Source: Paenibacillus sp. BIC5C1
Lineage (GTDB): Bacteria > Bacillota > Bacilli > Paenibacillales > Paenibacillaceae
Direction: 5' to 3'
Length of the DNA: 64,000 nt
NCBI RefSeq assembly: GCF_032399705.1
Contig: NZ_CP135922.1
Span: 744,001 to 808,000, forward strand
A program made the position numbers and the translations under genes. Shown piece by piece: positions 10,273 through 64,000 of the stretch (position 1 is its first letter; every line of letters begins with the position of its first letter). The notes under the pieces were generated by a model. The model saw only the letters and a list, made by a program, of their open reading frames with translations, ran no database searches and was not told where the DNA came from.

Positions 10273-11514
10273 TTGAATAAGGCCGAGGGTAGTCAAGCCG
10301 TTGCCAAGGAGGTAACGGTAGAGGGCGGTAAAGAGGCCGTTACCCACTGGAAGTTCAATTTTGGACCGGACACTAGCAGTGCAGGTGAGCTTGAGGGTTA
10401 TTTGAAAGTGTCTGCCAGCACCTCATATGAAGAACAGGGAGAATACGGTTTTGAATCTGGTTCCCTTGTGTATGAGAAGCAACGGATATCTGAAGACGAA
10501 TTATCGGATATCAGTAGAGCAAACAGTGGCAAACAAGGGCAGGCCACTGTGTCTGCCCGATTGCGTTCAAGCTTCTGTATTCCCCTCAAGGCATCTTTCA
10601 TCGTTAATGTACCTGATGGAACCTATCAAGTCTTGTTGATTGCAGGGGATGAATTGGCAGAGACGGTCACCCGTATCAAAGCCGGAGAGGGCAGACTGAT
10701 GCTGCCAACCATTCGTACACTTCCTGGGCAATGTGCAGAGGTTCGATTCTCGGTTGTGGTTCGTGGCGGGAAGCTCCGACTATCCTTCTCCGGTCCCGCG
10801 CCACGGATGAATGCATTGGAGATCACGCTTGCCAATCAGACGATGACAGTATTTCTCGCTGGTGATTCTACCGTGACAGATCAGCCGGAAAGTGGATATC
10901 CATACTGTGGCTGGGGCCAGCTGTTACCCGCACAATTCAAGCATGATGTTGCTGTCGATAACCATGCCCAGTCTGGGCGCAGTTCCCGGAGCTTTATCAA
11001 TGAAGGCAGATTGGATGCTATTCTGGAGAGGATTAAGCCCGAAGATTTTCTGTTTATTCAATTTGGACATAACGATGAGAAGCCGGACCCTGACCGGGGA
11101 ACGGAGCCTTTCACAACATATAAGGAATATCTGAAAAAGTATATCGATGCCGCCCGCGAAGTTAAGGCTCGTCCGGTGCTCGTGACACCGGTGCATCGGC
11201 GCTATTTCGCTGATGACGGAACATTGACCGACACCCATGGCGATTATATCGTGGCCGTGCGTGAGCTGGCGGAAGAGGAAAGTGTGCCGCTGATCGATCT
11301 GGCTGAGCGAAGCCGTATCCTGTTCGAGCAAGCCGGCATTGAAGGCAGCAAGGAGGATTTCATGTGGGTGCTGCCGGGTGAGTATGTGAACTTCCCAGCA
11401 GGCGTGGAGGATAACACCCACTTTCAGGAACGCGGTGCTCGTCGCCTCGCCATGCAGGTGGCGGAAGCCATCCGCGAGCTGCGACTGCAGCCACTGCAGA
11501 TGTATTTGAGGTAA
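10273..11514 (+). CDS. yesT: Rhamnogalacturonan acetylesterase-like SGNH hydrolase (YesT-like)
   Basis: A cytoplasmic esterase of 413 residues that probably removes acetyl groups from imported pectin fragments. Seen: an N-terminal beta-rich region (about 20-185, WKFNFGPDTS...) resembling a carbohydrate-binding module, then the SGNH domain with FLAGDSTVTDQ (nucleophile Ser199), an FIQFGHNDEKPD block and the catalytic DNTHFQERGARRLA block. There is no signal peptide, which fits action after import. The start chosen is TTG at 10273, since AAGGAGGG sits eight bases before it; the GTG at 10264 overlaps that ribosome site. It is longer than the single-domain B. subtilis YesT. It closes the importer operon and is followed by a tandem repeat block. 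Confidence 0.85.
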   Translation: MNKAEGSQAVAKEVTVEGGKEAVTHWKFNFGPDTSSAGELEGYLKVSASTSYEEQGEYGFESGSLVYEKQRISEDELSDISRANSGKQGQATVSARLRSSFCIPLKASFIVNVPDGTYQVLLIAGDELAETVTRIKAGEGRLMLPTIRTLPGQCAEVRFSVVVRGGKLRLSFSGPAPRMNALEITLANQTMTVFLAGDSTVTDQPESGYPYCGWGQLLPAQFKHDVAVDNHAQSGRSSRSFINEGRLDAILERIKPEDFLFIQFGHNDEKPDPDRGTEPFTTYKEYLKKYIDAAREVKARPVLVTPVHRRYFADDGTLTDTHGDYIVAVRELAEEESVPLIDLAERSRILFEQAGIEGSKEDFMWVLPGEYVNFPAGVEDNTHFQERGARRLAMQVAEAIRELRLQPLQMYLR

Positions 11515-11522
11515 GGGAGCAA

Positions 11523-12174
11523 GAAGGGCGGAATCGGAGCAGAGGGAGCGGAGCGTCCGCCTTTGGCGCGGGATTTCCCCTGCTGAGGGGGAATGAAAAA
11601 GAAATCCCGAGCCAACAGCGGCCCGCAGCCCGATCCGCCCGCCGAAGCGCCTGCCCCGCGAGTTAGCCTTGCTTTTATTAAGCAAGTTAACGAAGTAACG
11701 AGCAAGGTTGCTTTTAAGCTGCCCAGCGAGCATAGCGAAGGCAATAAGCCTTTAAAAAGCCAAGGCGAGCGTTGCAGCGAAGAAGGGCGGAATCGGAGCA
11801 GAGGGAGCGGAGCGTCCGCCTTTGGCGCGGGATTTCCCCTGCTGAGGGGGAATGAAAAAGAAATCCCGAGCCAACCTAGCGGCCCACAGCCCGATCCGCC
11901 ATCGAAGCGCCTGCCCCGCGAGTTAGCCTTGCTTTTATTAAGCGAGTTAACGAAGTAACGAGCATCCCAAAAGTTGCCCAGCGAGCATAGCGAAGGCAAT
12001 AAGCCTTTAAAAAGCCAAGGCGAGCGTTGCAGCGAAGAAGGGCGGAATCGGAGCAGAGGGAGCGGAGCGTCCGCCTTTGGCGCGGGATTTCCCCTGCTGA
12101 GGGGGAATGAAAAAGAAATCCCGAGCCAACAGCGGCCCGCAGCCCGATCCGCCCGCCGAAGCGCCTGCCCCGCA
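11523..12174 (+). repeat. Tandem structured repeat, about 257 bp, 2.5 copies
   Basis: Copies begin at 11523, 11782 and 12037 (periods 259 and 255 bp); the third stops near 12174. Each copy opens with a foldable core of about 118 bp: a closing stem (GGGCGGAATCGG with CCGATCCGCCC), a hairpin GCGGA-GCG-TCCGC, a compound stem CGGGATTT/AAATCCCG with an inner CCCC/GGGG hairpin, and the tag AACAGCG. The rest of each unit holds short GCGAG...GCGAAG-type motifs. The block is GC-rich and fills the gap between the acetylesterase and the ASRT gene. A diverged single copy lies at 63549-63659. The frames open inside it contain no recognisable protein. Confidence 0.9.
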
Positions 12175-12224
12175 AGCCTCCCGCGCGTTTAACTAATTAT
12201 TGCATTAGCAAAGGAGGAGTATTA

Positions 12225-12635
12225 ATGGCACAGGATCAGACGAACAATTCAGCACATAAAACATCTTCCACTACGACAGGTCGCACCGACTGGGTAATTC
12301 CCGATGGTTATATTCCACCAGTCAGCTCGGGCTCACTGGAGAGTCATGAGAGCATCTGTGTATTAAATACAAGTACAGTGGATGCACTGCTGCAAATAAC
12401 GATTTATTTTGAAGATAGGGAACCGCTCGAAGACATCGTGGCTGAGGTACCTGCGCGGAGAACAAAGCATATTCGGACAGCTTCGTTGAGATCGGGTGAA
12501 CAACTTATCCCTCCGGGAGTACCCTATGCCATTACCGTCTCCAGCAACGTTCCCGTTATCGTACAGTACAGCCGTCTGGATACTACTCAGCCTGAACTGG
12601 CACTCATGAGTGTTATGGCGTTTCCACTGGGATGA
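12225..12635 (+). CDS. ASRT-family protein (Anabaena sensory rhodopsin transducer-like)
   Basis: A 136-residue soluble protein of the ASRT family. Seen: after a 20-residue polar start, TDWVIPDGYIPPVSSG, SHESICVLNTSTVDALLQIT, IYFEDREPLEDI, VPARRTKHIRT and SNVPVIVQYSRLDTTQ, which follow the ASRT core almost throughout. The founding member binds a microbial rhodopsin in cyanobacteria. Most relatives occur in bacteria without rhodopsin and have been predicted to bind small molecules, probably sugars, and to regulate carbohydrate use. Its place beside a pectin-type importer fits that view. AAAGGAGGAG lies eight bases before the ATG. No rhodopsin gene is visible. The actual role is unknown. Confidence 0.88.
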   Translation: MAQDQTNNSAHKTSSTTTGRTDWVIPDGYIPPVSSGSLESHESICVLNTSTVDALLQITIYFEDREPLEDIVAEVPARRTKHIRTASLRSGEQLIPPGVPYAITVSSNVPVIVQYSRLDTTQPELALMSVMAFPLG

Positions 12636-17598: not shown

Positions 17599-17659
17599 CA
17601 AAAAAAGCCTCGTCCTTCATCCTGTTTCCCAGACGGGAACAGAATAGAAGGACGAAGCT
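17599..17659 (-). terminator. T-box regulated terminator
   Basis: On the minus strand, GCTTCGTCCTTC pairs with GAAGGACGAGGC and is followed by seven T. The loop has its own CTGTTCCC/GGGAAACAG pairing. It is the OFF state of the trpS T-box. Confidence 0.85.
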
Positions 17660-17935
17660 TATACTTCGCGGTGCCACCTTAATTGGCCGCTGGTTTGCGG
17701 CCCACTTGAGGGATACGGATGGATTATATGCAAGAAGCCCGCATATTGCCTTATCGATATCCTGTCCATGGATAACGGCTGAACTTGCCGCCTTGCCTAC
17801 TGACGATCCGCGCTCCTGAGTTAGGTGGCAGAACGTGTTCAACTCGGAACTCCGAAGCCCATTTCCACATGACCGATACACCTGCTCACACCATCCGCCG
17901 GCTCTCTGAGGTATCTAATCCTGTATACTTCTCTT
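17599..17935 (-). promoter_or_regulatory. T-box leader of trpS
   Basis: The minus strand holds the T-box core AAGGTGGCACCGCG at 17667-17680, matching the AGGGTGGNACCGCG consensus. Upstream is a Stem I-like region with AGAGAGCCGG and GGATGGTG phrases, and downstream a terminator (17599-17659) that would compete with the antiterminator. Two TGG triplets lie in the expected specifier region, at 17865-17867 and 17859-17861; which is the specifier needs a structure model. Uncharged tRNA-Trp would promote read-through into trpS. Confidence 0.9.
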
Positions 17936-17977
17936 CATCATTGTTGATAACGTCCATTTACAATTTTTCACATTGTA

Positions 17978-43986: not shown

Positions 43987-44018
43987 AGTGATGGGAAACA
44001 CACAAAAAACGCATACTA

Positions 44019-44087
44019 CTTCGTATAATCCCGGGGATTTGGCCTGGGAGTCTCTACGAGATCACCCTAATGATCTGGCTACGAAGA
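44019..44087 (+). ncRNA. Purine riboswitch, guanine type
   Basis: The P1 arms CTTCGTA and TACGAAG enclose TATAATCCCGGGGATTTGG, the TCTAC core and a second hairpin GAGATC...GATCT. The discriminating base in TGGCTACG is C, which selects guanine or hypoxanthine rather than adenine. It controls the permease gene 200 bases downstream through the terminator at 44106-44158. Confidence 0.93.
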
Positions 44088-44105
44088 GGATAAGGCTGAG
44101 CACAT

Positions 44106-46948: not shown

Positions 46949-51733
<4,785 letters not shown>

Positions 51734-51878
51734 AAATATGCAGGTTATGAATCGCAAATTCGTTTCGGATCTAGTTTTCAGAGAATAAACTCTGAAATGA
51801 AAATCGGTACATCACAGAATGTGTGTATGATTTTCAGTTCCACAATGATTTCAAGAAGCTATGCTTCGACAAATCGCG

Positions 51879-51995
51879 TTTGGTGGCGATGGCGGAGGGG
51901 TTCCACACGTACCCATCCCGAACACGACCGTTAAGCCCTCTAGCGCCGATGGTACTTGGACCGCAGGGTCCTGGGAGAGTAGGACGCCGCCAAGC
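51879..51995 (+). rRNA. rrf: 5S ribosomal RNA
   Basis: 117 bases from TTTGGTGGCGATGGCGGAGG to AGTAGGACGCCGCCAAGC. The terminal stem GGTGGCG/CGCCGCC and the internal CCCGAACACGACCGTTAAG block are typical. Confidence 0.97.
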
Positions 51996-60032: not shown

Positions 60033-60240
60033 GGAATAAAAGGGATGCAGCACCTCTGAATGATCGGTTATTTCCGAACATTATATTTGTCAATATGTTA
60101 AATGTTCGTCTTTAAGTTGACATTAGCTGTAGGGGATTGTTAGAATGTTAGATGTGTCGATCAGTTATATATAAGGTCGAGTAGGTTCGAAAGATGTGGA
60201 ATCTTCATTATTATTGAATTAATTTGTTGAAATAGATATT

Positions 60241-60310
60241 TGCTCGTATAACGCCGGGAATAGGGCCCGGAAGTATCTACCCGGGAACCGTAAATTTCCG
60301 GACTACGAGG
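60241..60310 (+). ncRNA. Purine riboswitch, guanine type, upstream of purE
   Basis: The P1 arms CTCGTA (60243-60248) and TACGAG (60304-60309) enclose the P2 arms CCGGG/CCCGG, the TATCTACC core, and the second hairpin around AACCGTAAATT. The discriminating base in GGACTACG is C, so guanine is the expected ligand. It should repress the pur operon when guanine is plentiful. The 200 bases between aptamer and purE must hold the expression platform; a T run at 60441-60446 is the best candidate stop, but its stem is not obvious. Confidence 0.92.
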
Positions 60311-60512
60311 AGATACGGCTGAGAGACGCATGAAATCAGATGCGGACAGCAAGCCTGCCTTTGGCATGCCCAAATGCGGGATACGTATTTCTTGGAGTCC
60401 GGTGTCCGGAGAAAATGTGATGTTTTCGCGGGTAGCGGATTTTTTCATTTCACAATTAAACGAGAAGCAACAGGATGAAACCAAAACGCTCAGACGGGAG
60501 TTGGATGTATTC

Positions 60513-62197: not shown

Positions 62198-63492
62198 TCG
62201 AACGTTATAGCAGACCCGAAATGAGAGCCATCTGGACGGAGGAGAACAAATTCAAGTCTTGGCTGGAAGTTGAAATTTGTGCATGTGAAGCTTGGGCGGA
62301 GCTTGGCGTCATTCCTAAGGAAGAAGCAGCATTGCTTCGTCAGAACGCTTCTTTTGACATCGACCGCATTTACGAGATTGAACAGGAAACACGTCATGAC
62401 GTTATTGCTTTCACGCGTACGGTATCTGAAAGTCTGGGCGCTGAGCGGAAATGGGTGCACTACGGACTGACTTCCACGGATGTCGTTGATACGGCTCTTG
62501 GATATGTACTGCGTCAGGCAAACGAAATCCTGGAACGTGACATTGTGAACTTTATCGAAATTTTACGTGAAAAAGCGAAGACCTATCAGCACACGCCAAT
62601 GATGGGACGTACACATGGGGTACATGCGGAGCCAACGACGTTTGGTCTGAAAATGGCACTCTGGCATGAAGAAATGAAACGGAATTTGGAGCGTTTCCGC
62701 CACGCGGCAGACAACGTACAATACGGTAAGATCTCTGGAGCAGTTGGTACTTACGCGAACATTGATCCGTTTGTTGAAGAGTTTGTCTGCGAGAAGTTGG
62801 GTACGAAGCCTGCACCAATCTCGACTCAAACGCTGCAACGTGACCGTCATGCAGAATACATGGCTACACTGGCATTGATCGCAACATCTCTGGACAAGTT
62901 TGCTACAGAAGTACGTGCGTTGCAAAAGAGTGAGTTCCGTGAAGTGGAAGAAGCATTTGCAAAAGGTCAAAAAGGATCTTCGGCAATGCCGCACAAACGT
63001 AACCCAATCGGCAGTGAAAATATTTCCGGTCTGTCCCGCGTTATTCGCGGACATATGGTATCGGCATACGAGAACGTGACGTTGTGGCACGAGCGCGATA
63101 TCTCGCACTCTTCCGTAGAGCGTATCATTCTGCCGGATGCAACGATGCTGCTGAACTACATGCTGAACCGTTTCGGAAACATCGTGAAGAACCTGACGGT
63201 ATTCCCTGAAAATATGAAACGCAATATGGAGCGCACCTTCGGTGTACCATTCTCCGGTCGCGTAATGACGAAGCTGATCGACAAAGGTTTCAGCCGTGAG
63301 CAGGCATACGATACGGTTCAGCCACGTGCGATGCAAGCATGGGAAGAACAACGCCAGTTCCAGGATATCGTGAAATCCACACCGGAAATTACGGAAGTGC
63401 TGAGCGACGAGGAAATCGCAGATGCGTTCAACCCGTCATGGCACCTGAAGCATGTGGATACAATCTTCAAAAAACTTGGTTTGAACGACTAA
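62194..63492 (+). CDS. purB: Adenylosuccinate lyase
   Basis: A 432-residue enzyme of the fumarase/aspartase superfamily that acts twice in purine synthesis, splitting SAICAR and adenylosuccinate. Seen: [20 protein letters not shown], the catalytic His in [18 protein letters not shown], and the signature loop [20 protein letters not shown] near residue 265. ATG 62194 is chosen: TTGGAGG lies 11 bases upstream and the start overlaps the purK stop. A 237-base gap with a structured repeat follows before purC. Confidence 0.97.
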
Positions 63493-63548
63493 TATAATCC
63501 TTTCATAAGGCTAGAGAACAGAATGATGGGTCAGCAGGGAACGCAGAG

Positions 63549-63659
63549 GACAGAAATAAGCTGAAGAAGCGAAGCGTTCGCCTTTATCCCCGGATTTTCA
63601 CTTTGAAAAAGTGGAATCAAAAAATCTGGGGATAACAGCGATCGGAAGATTGTTCTGTC
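63549..63659 (+). repeat. Diverged single copy of the structured intergenic repeat
   Basis: It keeps the order of elements of the tandem repeat at 11.5-12.2 kb: closing stem GACAGAA (63549-63555) / TTCTGTC (63653-63659); hairpin GCGAA-GCG-TTCGC (63569-63581); the block CCTTT; compound stem ATCCCCGGATTT (63586-63597) / AAATCTGGGGAT (63622-63633) with an inner CACTTT/AAAGTG hairpin; and the tag AACAGCG (63634-63640). Most paired bases differ from the other copies, yet pairing is kept. It lies inside the pur operon, between purB and purC. Confidence 0.85.
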
Positions 63660-63729
63660 ATCGGAGTGAAGTGTGCATCATCACGGCTCTGTTTATAGCC
63701 CTACATCTCCTGAAAGAAGGTGAGCCTCC

Positions 63730-64000
63730 ATGGCGCTGTCCACTGCGGCAGATCTCGTTAAAGCTCCTTTGTTATACAAGGGAAAAGTGCGTGAGTTGTA
63801 CGATCTGGGTGAACATTTTCTCATCGTGGTTACGGACCGGATTTCGGCATTTGACTATGTGCTGGACCCGGCCGTTCCCGAGAAGGGCAATGTGCTTAAT
63901 AAACTGAGCAGCTTCTGGTTTGAACTGACGGACGACATGATGGATAACCACGTGGTGCATACGGATGTAAACCAATTGGGCGATGTCATCACTGATCCTG
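63730..64000 (+). CDS. purC: SAICAR synthase, N-terminal part
   Basis: The gene runs off the right edge; 90 codons are visible from ATG 63730. Seen: LLYKGKVRELYDLGEHFLIV, the nucleotide-binding GKVR block, then VTDRISAFDYVLDPAVPEKG and LNKLSSFWFEL, the standard start of PurC, which joins aspartate to CAIR with ATP. AGAAGGTGAG precedes the ATG. It continues the pur operon after the structured repeat. Confidence 0.95.
   Translation, partial: MALSTAADLVKAPLLYKGKVRELYDLGEHFLIVVTDRISAFDYVLDPAVPEKGNVLNKLSSFWFELTDDMMDNHVVHTDVNQLGDVITDP

Follow-up and report, generated by a model that had tools for sequence, protein, structure and literature searches.

The gap between purB and purC in Paenibacillus sp. 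BIC5C1 holds a repeat that folds, and the question it raises is whether this repeat is a DNA sequence serving its own dispersal or an RNA structure acting on the message that contains it. The window analysed here is a stretch of 64,000 nucleotides that includes this locus. A preliminary description, made from its letters, held that the fold of the repeat is kept by compensating changes, as expected under selection on a folded nucleic acid.

The element between purB and purC

The gap extends from the end of purB at 63492 to the start of purC at 63730, both genes being identified by protein family assignments. The PurC of the host is 100% identical to the PurC of a record named strain NC1, and the host is close to P. 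taichungensis. In a fold of positions 63490-63715 the whole element, including its outer stem P1, occupies 63509-63700 on the plus strand, where all parts of this copy described below also lie. The arms of P1 (63509-63536 and 63672-63700) differ from the type with the motifs TTACAC and GTGTAA, common to 29 of 40 aligned close copies, yet they form a duplex of -22.2 kcal/mol. No T-run was seen 3' of the pur copy, so this copy lacks the form of an intrinsic terminator.

Inside P1 lies a conserved core (63540-63668), matched by two covariance models, R1 (146.1 bits) and the broader R2 (127.1 bits), and backed by pair counts on a free MAFFT alignment (A1). As modelled, it comprises a flanking purine-rich loop, the helix P2, a mini-hairpin, an extended helix, P4 and an apical part. 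The arms of P2, GACAGAAATAAGC (63549-63561) and GATTGTTCTGTC (63648-63659), are assigned from double changes in 10 of the 12 pairs of this helix (helix 2) among 26 copies at the same site. The mini-hairpin GC-GAA-GC (63569-63575), the loop of which is mostly GNA in the family, is paired in 100% of cells in A1, and in 5 of the 29 sequences a double change has turned a G-C pair into A-U. P4 is formed by TTATCCCCGGATTTT (63584-63598) and AAAATCTGGGGATAA (63621-63635) and is extended past a small internal loop by TCGC (63578-63581) with its 3' partner GCGA (63638-63641), as pair counts on A1 and on a second alignment (A3) indicate; together these make helix 5, with 98.5% of cells paired. The extension and the separate mini-hairpin GC-GNA-GC replace the small hairpin GCGAA/TTCGC of the preliminary description, which we rejected because its cells were paired in 84.8% of cases vs 85.0% in shuffles. 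The closing stem GACAGAA/TTCTGTC and the main stem ATCCCC-GGATTT had been drawn correctly, and both covary in A1.

Compensating changes in the fold

The predicted fold of the pur stretch was more stable than all 200 of 200 dinucleotide shuffles, both for 146 nt (z -3.39) and for 226 nt (z -3.90). A1 contains 29 distinct rows. Its cells are paired in 96.0% of cases, and double changes occur in 19 of 34 pairs; none of 500 shuffles was as high on any of five measures, a control to be read with the caveat that kinship among sequences can beat shuffles even without structure. A3, built of 63 distinct rows from many genera and fitted to a covariance model, gave 94.2% paired cells, double changes in 31 of 34 pairs and a covariation score of 0.639 vs 0.197 for shuffles and at most 0.134 for slid partners. 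A2, A3 and A4 are all model-fitted, which biases the pairs counted on A2 and A3 toward the model.

A further set consisted of 26 copies at the purB-purC site itself, with six same-site copies that carry a 40-nt insert excluded. Here 94.6% of cells pair and double changes are present in 18 of 34 pairs, 2 of 500 shuffles equalling the real value on one of the five measures; one P2 pair (columns 10/128) is unpaired in 14 of the 26 copies. The six most distant rows of this set may be independent arrivals at the site.

Cells with G-U exceed those with A-C in A1 (36 vs 6), A3 (73 vs 30) and A2 (106 vs 54), which matches the expectation for an RNA of the element's own strand. The letters most conserved in the family are GaAGCgnAGCG, CGCcTTT and AAcaGCG. 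The picture of conserved loops between variable stems was true only in part, since mean column identity over all columns is 0.66 for unpaired and 0.72 for paired positions. AACAGCG, once listed as unpaired, is not wholly so, its GCG being paired with CGC. In five loci (L084, L085, L090, L091 and L092) the internal loop CGCC/AACAGCG is changed jointly to CGTA/AACGACG (AACGATG in L091), a concerted shift suggestive of coupled non-standard pairs.

A single consensus accommodates the other genomic copies, and both the shuffled and the slid controls show less covariation than the real alignments. Compensating change supports selection on the element's fold, as the preliminary description had proposed, and three alignments back this conclusion.

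Copies in the genome and their distribution

A DNA search with the pur copy recovered 49 aligned pieces from the genome, the query included, the others being 81-96% identical (40 of 133 candidates were scored). R1, built from 30 rows, found 109 matches, 3 of them reverse-strand echoes of a palindromic stem, and R2 found 103. Placed by gene calls, the R2 copies are dispersed and intergenic; three of the 93 placed copies overlap called genes, by 2, 5 and 78 nt.

The same element recurs in the window, as had been stated: model hits show the pur stretch to be homologous to three tandem copies of a G+C-rich type at 11518-11649, 11776-11909 and 12031-12163, all on the plus strand (R1 97.7, 96.4 and 102.5 bits, respectively). 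It is the pur copy that represents the majority type, rather than a diverged one, with its 49 DNA pieces vs the 3 places matched by the tandem copies, which find only themselves. The stretch 11457-12218 consists of head-to-tail units of about 255-260 bp upstream of a gene at 12225, each unit with one G+C-rich copy and, in addition, another repeated segment that reads GTTAGCCTTGC...GTTAACGAAGTAACGAGCA in 2 of 3.

Within the genus, matches were present in all 75 genomes searched, with at least 46 matches in 50 of the 75; the low-copy genomes G014, G039, G024 and G009 had 1, 4, 5 and 6 matches. A copy number that varies from 1 to about 100 inside one genus means that the element is not essential. 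In the order, it was found in 235 of the 296 genomes sampled, and 32 of 48 genera have it. A sample of the class gave matches in 29 of 299 genomes, of which two, both with weak matches, fall outside the order, and a sample of the phylum in 7 of 398, every one in the same family. These wide scans scored 46 (genus), 11 (order), 11 (class) and 8 (phylum) candidates per genome under stricter filters, and such shallow scans make the absences weak. The family was built outward from the host genome, and the loci of other genera are best matches rather than a random sample. Phages gave no match to the element, and among plasmids matches were limited to two replicons of Paenibacillus cellulosilyticus. 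In one genome of another order of the same class (G334), three weak model hits (L226, L230 and L232) resemble each other and the element core and, by eye, have CGCCTTTA/TAAGAGCGG in common; judged by these letters, they may be distant relatives of the element.

Variation at the purB-purC site and in P1

PurC matches were obtained in 74 genomes, and the site was surveyed in 50 of them. A sense copy stands directly upstream of purC in all 30 nearest genomes and in 9 of 20 further ones (39 of 50 together); among these 20, three have an antisense copy about 640-690 nt upstream of purC and eight have a purB-purC gap without the element, the gap being short in one locus (L172). Among the best 80 of 394 named genomes, which overlap partly in species with the 50, a sense copy precedes purC in 32, including all 26 nearest, and an antisense copy lies between purB and purC in three species. 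Remnants of a second copy were recognised by eye in L164, L165 and L170. Four genomes without the element before purC (L176, L177, L179 and L180) have another hairpin there, e.g. GATCTGCCTT...AAGGCAGATC.

The arms of P1 are of the pur-copy type in 17 and of a different type in 13 of the 30 genomes at this site. When each 5' arm was compared with possible partners, its own 3' arm was among the best 5% in 38 of 93 own-genome copies (about 5 expected) and in 16 of 37 diverse copies (about 2 expected), and outside them in 55 of 93 and 21 of 37. The element thus has terminal inverted repeats in the sense of paired P1 arms, the letters of which vary by copy and which are clear in less than half of the copies.

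A subfamily with a common insert of about 40 nt, judged by length, makes up 22 of the 93 own-genome copies. The insert, AAAGCTTTCTGAAAGAAAGCT..., occurs at two positions of the element among copies (L153 1272-1439; L158, L160, L166), a pattern that resembles the exchange of a module. The purC-purS gap carries an inverted pair of copies in most of the 30 genomes (in L134 at 2403-2536 on the minus and 2728-2863 on the plus strand), with no match to the minus copy in L140, L144 and L158. The sole indel inspected there, in an alignment seen in part, had no clean insertion boundary. Different arms at one and the same site, the tandem duplication and the occurrence of the insert at two places suggest that members of the family duplicate and are afterwards retained.

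Orientation and neighbouring genes

Gene context was taken for 93 of the 103 R2 matches, with genes called by a hexamer caller rather than from annotation; 89 of the 93 copies were placed, and four without a neighbour on one side were excluded. Gaps between genes of the same strand contain 75 copies, 69 of them sense to both genes and 6 antisense (p 1.2e-14). Divergent gaps hold 9 copies and convergent gaps 5; such gaps are uninformative on orientation and were dropped as a test of it. Few-copy genomes and other genera (37 of 39 loci placed) gave 23 sense, 6 antisense, 3 divergent and 5 convergent copies, and 35 further loci of the genus 18, 4, 7 and 6, respectively, so that the sense share in same-strand gaps elsewhere (23 of 29 and 18 of 22) is below that of the own genome. 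The ratios of divergent to convergent gaps, 9/5 here and 3/5 elsewhere, do not clearly favour leaders over trailers.

With the origin assumed at 0 and the terminus at 3.9 Mb, the leading strand carries 77 of the 93 copies. Under the same assumption, same-strand gaps of leading-strand genes contain 64 sense and 4 antisense copies, and those of lagging-strand genes 5 sense and 2 antisense. Replication strand as the sole cause of orientation was rejected, because 5 of these 7 deciding copies follow the gene (Fisher p 1.4e-4).

The median distance from the core to the next co-directional start codon is 64.5 nt; it is 40-85 nt in 50 of 80 cases and at most 75 nt in 48, which leaves scant space for a promoter past the P1 arm. 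Short operon gaps would by themselves bring a copy close to the next start codon. For 30 of the 80 downstream proteins, chosen for a scan against NCBIfam, a family was obtained in 23 and no match at the limits used in 7, several matches being fragments below the curated cut-off. The downstream proteins named in this way include pyrimidine-nucleoside phosphorylase, beta-phosphoglucomutase, anthranilate synthase component I, PurC, PurH, L-arabinose isomerase, PcrA, enolase, CarA, HtpG, thymidylate synthase, uracil phosphoribosyltransferase, xylulokinase, Pth, FabZ, EF-P, glycogen/starch phosphorylase, phosphogluconate dehydrogenase, glutamate racemase, gluconokinase, UvrC and serine hydroxymethyltransferase. 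No gene theme or regulon was seen in these 30 proteins or the 93 contexts. An enolase gene is also preceded by a copy in a genome of another family (L210), and 8 of 25 downstream genes at the genus loci are at least 95% identical to an element-bearing gene of the host genome, one of the eight being from the host's own species.

Interpretation

A cis-acting RNA is favoured by selection on the fold, by a sense bias that depends on genes more than on replication and by the occupation of one site across many species, and we consider it likely that the element is a structured RNA of this kind, situated in mRNA leaders and between the genes of operons. That no theme was seen among the downstream genes scanned speaks against a common ligand and rather for a general effect on messages, such as processing or protection of the downstream part. 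Taken by itself, an effect on the processing or stability of the downstream mRNA is a tentative proposal. Summarizing these data, the best explanation as a whole is probably a leader or intercistronic RNA module that acts in cis and is selected for its fold, with processing or stability of the downstream mRNA as the effect to be expected first. The element would be transcribed together with the downstream gene, and a protein or ribonuclease may read the conserved core. This reading could set the processing or stability of the downstream message, e.g. when the element serves as a 5' stabiliser after cleavage. Duplication would have carried the element to about 100 sites of the genome, where selection on the fold may retain many copies. 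The history of dispersal and the function are compatible, and neither excludes the other.

A non-autonomous mobile element (a MITE, similar to bcr1), with arms and fold serving the mobility of its own DNA or RNA and an orientation bias left by the loss of harmful insertions, is in our opinion rather unlikely as the explanation. It would account for dispersed copies of high similarity, inverted TTACAC/GTGTAA arms in 29 of 40 aligned close copies, the subfamily with the insert of about 40 nt (22 of 93 by length), copy numbers of 1 to about 100 within the genus and the purB-purC gaps that are devoid of a copy in 8 of the 20 further genomes and short in L172. However, same-site copies retain pairing via double changes across species (with six distant rows that may be separate arrivals), and 69 copies are sense vs 6 antisense. 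A repeat like bcr1 would be expected to show a TTTAT end motif, a target duplication or a recent insertion; the single purC-purS indel inspected, in an alignment seen in part, had no clean boundary. Covarying helices and a conserved core at a leader-like position also recall a riboswitch or another ligand-sensing leader with a common aptamer. This is very improbable for an element with about 100 copies before such unrelated genes as eno, pth, efp, glyA, upp, thyA, uvrC and pcrA, and also htpG, araA, xylB, purH and carA, and with no T-run behind the pur copy.

A structured single-stranded or cruciform DNA element with a role in replication, recombination or chromosome organisation seems hardly probable. 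Mini-hairpins of the type C-GNA-G are unusually stable in DNA; most rows have a GNA loop, and 77 of 93 copies are on the leading strand under the assumed origin and terminus (0 and 3.9 Mb). On the other hand, orientation tracks the genes where gene and replication strand differ (seven cases only), and G-U cells outnumber A-C cells.

More speculatively, the cis-acting RNA may represent a new class of mobile regulatory RNA, in which a core recognised by a dedicated factor would have been copied to about 100 leaders per genome in many Paenibacillales and provide one post-transcriptional signal for mRNA processing or stability across much of metabolism while the stems drift freely; we regard this as doubtful at present. 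If the leader reading is true, the element would rank, to our knowledge, with the cis-acting RNA structures that reach the highest copy numbers in a bacterial genome, and a numerous element in an order of soil bacteria would have been overlooked by Rfam-based annotation. Many in-place copies with compensated stems form a natural experiment in which RNA-level selection on a dispersed repeat can be measured, a question that also concerns MITE-like elements.

Relation to known RNAs and repeats

The earlier statement that no named RNA family has this pattern agrees with a comparison with Rfam 15. A scan of the whole window gave six matches, none of them at the element. Features recognised by Rfam elsewhere in the window include purine riboswitch aptamers at 44001-44101 and 60224-60325, the second directly upstream of purE, a T-box leader at 17645-17950 on the minus strand and a ribosomal RNA operon (16S, 23S, 5S) at 46950-51995. 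At E<=10, the region 63400-63800 gave four sub-threshold eukaryotic or viral families, the best with 25.5 bits vs 70, and 14 diverse loci scanned at E<=0.5 gave three matches, none overlapping the element. No description of the element was recognised in the open PMC literature, a body of text that mostly leaves out subscription papers. According to the accessible text of a transcriptome study of Paenibacillus riograndensis, comparison of 209 leaders longer than 100 bases with Rfam gave 11 elements (PMC5670726), and the string 'Paenibacill' is absent from the main text, as openly available, of PMC8632094 and PMC2864571.

The element shares with riboswitches and the cis-regulatory RNAs of Rfam a conserved structured core, covarying helices and a leader position near gene starts. 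Unlike them, it has no Rfam match, no gene theme or coherent gene set among the 30 downstream proteins scanned and about 100 copies in one genome.

Closer likenesses are found among dispersed repeats. The repeats bcr1-bcr18 of the Bacillus cereus group are described, in the accessible parts of the corresponding papers, as dispersed intergenic sequences of 100-400 bp, bcr1 having up to 130 copies; bcr copies were detected in mRNA of two strains (84 of 165, about half, and 62 of 155, 40%), and the folds of bcr10 and bcr18, located in 5' UTRs, are conserved (PMC3446304, PMC6542083). Within the same accessible text, bcr3 is associated with a longer mRNA half-life in B. cereus, the authors leaving the cause open (PMC3446304). 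As far as these texts describe them, bcr repeats resemble the element in being dispersed, intergenic and located in leaders and operon gaps. In a comparison of distribution rather than of sequence homology, bcr1 is described there as confined to the B. cereus group, whereas the element spans an order with diverged stems. MITE, REP and ERIC sequences, as characterised in the available portion of PMC3733652, are likewise small dispersed palindromic repeats, often situated beside genes and transcribed; REPs are palindromes of 20-40 bp by the same account, whereas the element has a multi-part conserved core of about 129 positions.
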